DNA of 40,557 nucleotides from Thermodesulfobacteriota bacterium (lineage in GTDB: Bacteria > Desulfobacterota > Desulfobacteria > Desulfobacterales > JAUWMJ01): positions 1-40,557 of the forward strand of contig JAXHVO010000041.1 of the NCBI GenBank assembly GCA_034189135.1, read 5' to 3'. Shown here one piece after another: positions 22,193-29,700 of the stretch. The notes below the pieces were generated by a model, which searched no databases, was not told where the DNA came from, and saw only the letters and a list, made by a program, of their open reading frames with translations. The position numbers and the translations under genes were made by a program. Position 1 is the first letter of the stretch, and every line of letters starts with the position of its first letter.

Positions 22193-22306
22193 ATTTCCTC
22201 ACCATACAGACGATACACCGATCATTTTCCCCAGCGTGGCTTTACAATTTTAAGTAATAGCGGTTCCAGGGGGTTGACATCTTTGAATTAAGTCACATAG
22301 TTAGTT
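22193..22306. other. Intergenic flank of the mobile element
   Basis: No gene is seen. The stretch ends in AGTTAGTT (22299-22306), the left copy of a direct repeat that flanks the mobile element. Confidence 0.5.
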
Positions 22307-22644
22307 GAGAGATCGGGGCGTTTTTCAATCTCTACTCAGTTCGTCCGGAGAAGCGCCCATTTGCCCGTATCCGCCTTAACAATCATTTCGGGAAACCGGC
22401 GTTCGGTCCGCCTAGGCGGACTGAGATTCAATTCGAACCAGCCCCAAGGGACAGAACCCCACGGCAGCGTTGGTCGTCTCTGCCGGTATGGATTTAACTG
22501 AGAAGATAGGGGGCGTGTACAGAGTGCCGGACTTATTTGTTAAGGCCGATACGGGCAAATGGGCGCTTCTCCGGACGAACCTCTATCAAACATTAAATCA
22601 CAAACGGTTCACCAAACAGGCCATTGATAAGAAACTCCCCGATC
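22307..22644. mobile_element. MITE-like fold-back element, copy 1
   Basis: A 338-base non-coding element. Its ends are inverted: GATCGGGGCGTTTTTC near the left end (22311-22326) and the reverse complement of GATAAGAAACTCCCCGATC at the right (22626-22644). It is flanked by the direct repeat AGTTAGTT (22299-22306, 22645-22652). Inside, 22339-22382 pairs with 22537-22580 (43 of 44 positions) around a 154-base loop that contains GTCCGCCTAGGCGGAC, a perfect 16-base palindrome. It carries no transposase. A second, diverged copy is at 29297-29638 in the same orientation. It ends 70 bases before htpG. Confidence 0.85.
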
Positions 22645-22714
22645 AGTTAGTTAACAGTATACAATATAGGCATTCCATAACCAACAGAAACTATAATCAT
22701 TTCGAGGAGAATTC

Positions 22715-29071: not shown

Positions 29072-29296
29072 AATGTTAGACTCCAAGGTATAAGGTTGGC
29101 AAAAAAGCATCAAAGATTTATCTGGGAGGCGATAATAGGACTTAGCAATATATAATGCAAGTGTTAAAACAGAGAGTGTTTTTAAAAAGTCTTACATGGA
29201 GGTCAAGGTCGGGATTACTGGGTCTTTCTTTCACAAACGTTATTTAACGAATTATCACAAATCATTAGACTTAAACAACTTACTGGTATATAAACT

Positions 29297-29638
29297 GAGC
29301 GGTCGGGGAGTTTTTCAATCTCTACTCAGTTGGTCCGGGGAAGCGCCCATTGGCCCGTATCAGACTTAACAATCATTTCGAGAAACTGGCGTACGGTCCG
29401 CCTGAGGTGAACTGAGATTCGATTTGTACCAGCCCCAAGGGACAGAACCCCACGGAAGCGTTGATCGTCTCTGCCTGTATGGGTTTTACTGAGAAGATAG
29501 GGGGCGTGTACAGATGTCGGACTTATTTGTTAAGTCTGATACGGGCCAATGGGCGCTTCCTCGGACCAACCATTCACAATCATTAAAACGCAAACTGTTC
29601 ACAAAAAAGGCTATTGATAAGAAACTTCCCGACACCTC
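29297..29638. mobile_element. MITE-like fold-back element, copy 2
   Basis: A 342-base element homologous to 22307-22644 over its whole length and in the same orientation. The left end GAGCGGTCGGGGAGTTT and the reverse complement of the right end GAGGTGTCGGGAAGTTT are terminal inverted repeats. The element is bordered exactly by the 9-bp direct repeat ATATAAACT (29288-29296, 29639-29647). Inside, 29329-29372 pairs with 29527-29570 (43 Watson-Crick pairs plus one G-T) around a 154-base loop, the same loop length as copy 1. It lies 62 bases before the lipoprotein hydrolase start. Confidence 0.88.
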
Positions 29639-29700
29639 ATATAAACTTGTTAAGCCGGGACGAGACCAAAGCCGCACCCGGATATTTTATAAGGGAGGAG

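Follow-up and report, generated by a model that had tools for sequence, protein, structure and literature searches.

Matched arm changes, block inversion and a conserved, probably folded spacer core in a MITE family of Thermodesulfobacteriota

Introduction

Compensatory base changes are commonly taken to prove that an RNA is structured. Two copies of a hairpin-bearing element in a 40,557-nucleotide stretch of DNA from a Thermodesulfobacteriota bacterium (contig JAXHVO010000041.1; the whole stretch is called the window here) raise the question of whether their arms should be read in this way: the arms differ between the copies, and changes in one arm are matched in the other. Template switching between inverted repeats homogenises the arms and inverts the spacer (PMC8604942), and it has been found to produce multi-base compensatory changes in RNA genes, which mimic compensatory change (PMC8794818). 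An earlier note on the locus had left two explanations side by side, namely, selection for a structured hairpin (a functional RNA or a single-strand DNA transposition substrate) and correction of one arm by the other.

Results

Matched changes in the arms of the two window copies

The earlier note had listed five left-arm differences between the copies, each matched on the right arm, and direct reading of the sequences showed this list to be exact. At left-arm positions 4, 11 and 24, the pairs change from C-G to G-C, from A-T to G-C and from T-A to G-C, respectively. At position 36, C-G becomes A-T, and at position 34, a C.C mismatch is replaced by A-T. The single further change that had been claimed was recovered at left-arm position 10, where G-C becomes G.T. 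The 44-nt arms are 98% complementary, and the loop is 154 nt long in both copies, as stated before. The element ends that had been proposed (22307-22644 and 29297-29638) are right, since they are flanked by the direct repeats AGTTAGTT and ATATAAAC(T). The predicted fold is far more stable than expected by chance (z of about -11 and about -10 for the two copies). In a set of 24 copies whose arms have the standard length of 44 nt, arms differed at 1.4 of 44 positions within one element and at 8 of 44 positions between elements. The arms are more alike within than between elements, which is the mark of homogenisation, and arm matching is therefore general in the family.

The element is a MITE

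The feature is a MITE (non-autonomous DNA transposon), i.e., it is short, non-coding and dispersed and carries terminal inverted repeats (TIRs) and target duplications. Copy 1 and copy 2 are 338 bp and 342 bp long, respectively, and both consist of a 44-bp arm, a 154-nt spacer and a second arm enclosed by the two ends (Table 1). The genome to which the window belongs (G000) holds at least 55 scattered copies or places, about 40 of which were scored in the first genome search, and relatives of the element occur across Thermodesulfobacteriota. Ends of the type GAGGGGTCGGGGAGTTTTTCAA are common to the copies in G000 and in the same-genus genome G001. Many copies carry GAGGGGTCGGGGAGTTTTTC and its complement at their two ends, and target duplications of constant length (8 bp, AT-rich; e.g., AATTAACT and AGTTAGTT) were found at many sites in both genomes. 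Because of these TIRs and 8-bp target duplications, the proposal of a single-strand DNA transposition substrate is unsupported. The G000 and G001 copies contain no preserved open frame. Copy 1 is positioned between a gene encoding an FAD-dependent oxidoreductase and htpG, and copy 2 is positioned between a UPF0182 gene and an alpha/beta hydrolase gene.

Searches of G000, G001, G002, G026, G524 and G659 revealed no autonomous relative sharing these ends; the end motifs seen to pair there did so only at MITE size. The window element had no match in the phage collection, and a distant relative used as the query had none in the plasmid collection. Viral sequences matched by pattern were excluded as members by the covariance model. 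A site occupied in the assembly BIN27 (L209) lacks the element in the assembly Prado118 (G203), in which about 15 bp replace about 332 bp between flanks that are 91% identical; the junction of this empty site has diverged, and the target duplication is not exactly readable there.

Table 1. Coordinates of the two copies of the element in the window.
Feature	Position	Strand	Basis or remark
Target-site duplication, left of copy 1, AGTTAGTT	22299..22306	.	
Left end of copy 1	22307..22338	+	
Left arm of copy 1	22339..22382	+	Inverted-repeat search
154-nt spacer of copy 1, orientation direct	22383..22536	+	
Right arm of copy 1	22537..22580	+	Inverted-repeat search
Right end of copy 1	22581..22644	+	
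Target-site duplication, right of copy 1	22645..22652	.	
Target-site duplication, left of copy 2	29288..29296	.	ATATAAACT, 8 bp plus one chance match; direct repeat with 29639-29647
Left end of copy 2: terminal inverted repeat GAGCGGTCGGGGAGTTTTTCAA and outer spacer	29297..29328	+	Common to copies genome-wide
Left arm of copy 2, 44 nt	29329..29372	+	Inverted-repeat search
154-nt spacer of copy 2, orientation direct	29373..29526	+	
Conserved core in copy 2 spacer, approximate limits	29404..29513	+	Covariance-model matches, alignments
Putative helix P_A strand ACGGCAG in copy 2 core, replaced by small GGTCCGCC.. hairpin	within 29404..29513	+	
Right arm of copy 2, 44 nt	29527..29570	+	Inverted-repeat search
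Right end of copy 2: outer spacer and terminal inverted repeat (..AAACTTCCCGACACCTC)	29571..29638	+	
Target-site duplication, right of copy 2	29639..29647	.	Direct repeat

Inversion of the arms-plus-spacer block

Blast searches with parts of the element revealed that the block formed by arms and spacer is reversed relative to the ends in many copies. With the orientation scored by the ends, 41 copies were direct and 24 were inverted (26:17 in G000, 10:6 in G001, 4:1 in G026 and 1:0 in G002). On a tree calculated from the spacer only, the orientation needs 20 changes, compared to a mean of 19.6 after shuffling, and a single origin was rejected (AU, p of about 1e-103). The orientation is random with respect to the spacer phylogeny. 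A first orientation tree had grouped the inverted copies; it contained some outer-end sequence (about 13 bp), which varies with the orientation, and was replaced by the spacer-only tree.

The hunt for orthologous insertions, which covered 75 stretches that a pattern search had picked out of named genomes, yielded one orthologous filled pair, an insertion common to two Desulfobacterales assemblies, BIN27 (L159) and Prado118 (L226). The flanks of this pair are collinear and 84-90% identical, the outer ends correspond, and the block is inverted in place, i.e., the spacer has been reversed at one and the same site. Comparison of the arms of L159 and L226 revealed three differences present in both arms and one more in a single arm. 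This pair is the matched-change pattern seen in place, together with the inversion. The query L189 gave no clear orthologue in Prado118, and the search for the L177 orthologue ran into a contig edge. Comparison of copies by eye in the genome G524 showed an arm mismatch, ATAGGG/AAATGG, swapped between them, which is consistent with arm exchange.

Several variants of the element were also observed. L046 (G002:C119) has the same ends and no core, and a perfect hairpin of about 26 bp replaces its arms and spacer; L122 (G001:C113) and L128 (G002:C275) are short, core-less derivatives with the same ends. About 100 bp containing the strong hairpin GAAAAAAACGTTTCGATAACGGAACGTTTTTTTG are inserted in the outer end of L023 (G000:C107, about 1390-1530). 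A subfamily in G000 (L029, second copy, L032, L035, L037 and L038) has different outer ends, ATAAATTTTCATGCCCG...GCATGAAACC, and its block likewise occurs in both orientations. L139 and L146 (G524) have a single near-perfect repeat of about 75 bp, formed by fusion of the terminal repeats with the arms.

Wobble pairs among the arm mismatches

Under selection for RNA pairing, G.U is expected to be much commoner than A.C among leftover mismatches on the RNA strand. The G.U:A.C ratio was 19:23 in close copies and 43:53 in distant families, giving 62:76 when pooled (p 0.27; 95% interval of the G.U share, 0.36-0.54). The arm mismatches have no wobble bias, which limits RNA selection on the arms and is compatible with weak selection; if correction is fast, the leftover mismatches are young and unsifted and would show no wobble bias even under RNA selection. 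Of the two explanations in the earlier note, correction is directly supported for the arms by the in-place inversion, the randomised orientation and the absence of wobble bias. Signs of selection for structure are seen in the 154-nt spacer and not in the arms.

A conserved core in the spacer

Several families and classes share a conserved core of about 120 nt, and the arms on either side of it are unrelated in sequence. A covariance model detected the core in 16 of the 389 genomes that represented the order, and a second model (class sample) in 19 of 389; it is also present in other families of the phylum (f121 and f106). Records that carry a name are metagenome assemblies of Desulfobacterales and Thermodesulfobacteriota. 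In nearly every full copy inspected, the core is flanked by arms of about 35-49 bp, whose sequences are unrelated between families; in G524 the arms are about 75 bp long, arm and end being fused.

The alignments suggest three core helices, namely, P_A (GGCAG:CTGCC), P_B (GCCCC:GGGGG), which would cross P_A, and a closing helix. When the arms were left out, 94.4% of the core helix cells were found to pair. Two-sided changes were counted in 48 cells, compared to 24 after shuffling and no more than 19 when the helices were slid, and these counts are descriptive, the helices having been picked by inspection of the same alignments. The compensatory changes looked for in a structured RNA are present, with the arms left out, in P_A, P_B and the closing helix as chosen on these sequences; six two-sided cells belong to P_A (L085, L099, L134, L142 and L144) and one to P_B (L148). 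The wobbles in the core (9 G.U to 7 A.C) do not indicate a strand, and the pairing is nearly symmetric between strands. Neither the window nor distant relatives had a credible match in Rfam 15, HDV models included. A degraded gene was also considered for the core and set aside, since the copies have indels that break the frame.

In about 23 G000 copies, including both window copies, the GGCAG strand is replaced by a small GTCCGCC..GGCGGAC hairpin, and P_A as drawn is therefore unable to form; the copies in question have multiplied regardless. One spacer hairpin exists in two forms, GGCAGCTATCTCGCTG or the palindromic GGTCCGCCT(G)AGGCGGAC, the latter in the about 23 G000 copies, among them the two window spacers (22383-22536 and 29373-29526). 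The palindromic form, which abolishes one strand of the putative pseudoknot, resembles a small dispersed palindrome.

Discussion

We consider it likely that, in this MITE, arm exchange takes place on DNA and flips the spacer, and that selection maintains the core as a folded molecule with a pseudoknot, probably RNA. In the mechanism proposed here, DNA sequence would pass between the two arms at each site, most likely through template switching during replication or through recombination via a hairpin or cruciform. Matched changes would arise because a new base in one arm is copied to the other, and the same exchanges would reverse the spacer. The data fit template switching; recombination between the arms would look identical here. 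The matched arm changes thus appear to record mainly DNA exchange between the arms and not RNA selection.

A long RNA hairpin under selection, with the element transcribed, the 44-bp arms required to pair and compensatory changes fixed, would account for the very stable predicted fold, for the strong covariation of arm pairs between families and for the covarying helices of the core. Such selection is nevertheless an unlikely source of the arm pattern, given that G.U is not in excess over A.C among the arm mismatches, that arm sequence is unconserved between families and that spacer inversion shows DNA exchange between the arms. The recurrent inversion between inverted repeats could itself be attributed to a site-specific recombinase that flips the spacer as a phase switch and uses the arms as recombination sites. 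The element resembles invertons (phase-variable invertible promoters) in having inverted repeats and an invertible spacer of similar size. However, conserved recombinase sites were not found in the repeats: the arm sequences are unrelated between families and share only the inner few bases, and the dozens of copies are mobile and dispersed at unrelated sites. An inverton is very unlikely on these grounds.

The apparent inversion might also reflect mosaic assembly or exchange among dispersed copies instead of events at single sites, since a repeated element is read here from metagenome assemblies. The copies differ by about 10-13%, however, and the arms are shorter than the usual assembly word lengths. 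The inversion was seen in independent assemblies and families, and the outer ends of L159 and L226 correspond between species, which makes this reading highly improbable.

Exchange between the arms agrees with template-switch homogenisation (PMC8604942; also PMC8794818) in that arms are made identical, the spacer flips, and matched changes imitate compensation. The arm pattern is ordinary in kind, as an instance of inverted-repeat exchange, and unusually well documented in this family. In contrast to the homogenisation described in PMC8604942, the process is repeated here across dozens of scattered copies of a bacterial element, whose arms measure about 35-75 bp and whose spacer is deeply conserved. 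Correction alone is an insufficient explanation for arms that are present in nearly every full copy, in several families and with unrelated sequence. The element shares its short, non-coding, dispersed nature, its TIRs and its target duplications with bacterial MITEs such as those of Coxiella burnetii (PMC5896051). The present family differs by an internal invertible cassette and a conserved pseudoknot-like core, by the presence of this core in MITEs with unrelated ends and by a parent transposon that was not found.

The conserved core is a more novel object than the arm pattern. It has the look of a conserved, folded RNA (or DNA) element, so far undescribed and found across the phylum, and its pairing points to selection on a pseudoknotted fold, probably of RNA. 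The well-known layout of HDV-like self-cleaving ribozymes offers a comparison: the strand order P_A5', P_B5', hairpin, P_A3', P_B3' and the crossing of the helices are alike. The core differs from these ribozymes in that it has no Rfam match, a longer linker between the first two strands and no known cleavage site, and the putative likeness is one of layout only.

Tentatively, the family may represent a new class of mobile structured RNA, in which a pseudoknotted core of about 120 nt with self-correcting arms would be carried throughout Thermodesulfobacteriota by MITEs with unrelated ends and would work in either orientation; such an RNA may be catalytic, guide or regulatory. A folded core that is absent from Rfam is a concrete new RNA candidate. 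The many copies and the orientation marker show that a pattern like that of compensatory change can result from DNA exchange between arms. Since DNA exchange can mimic compensation, the family offers a natural test bed for telling mutation from selection.
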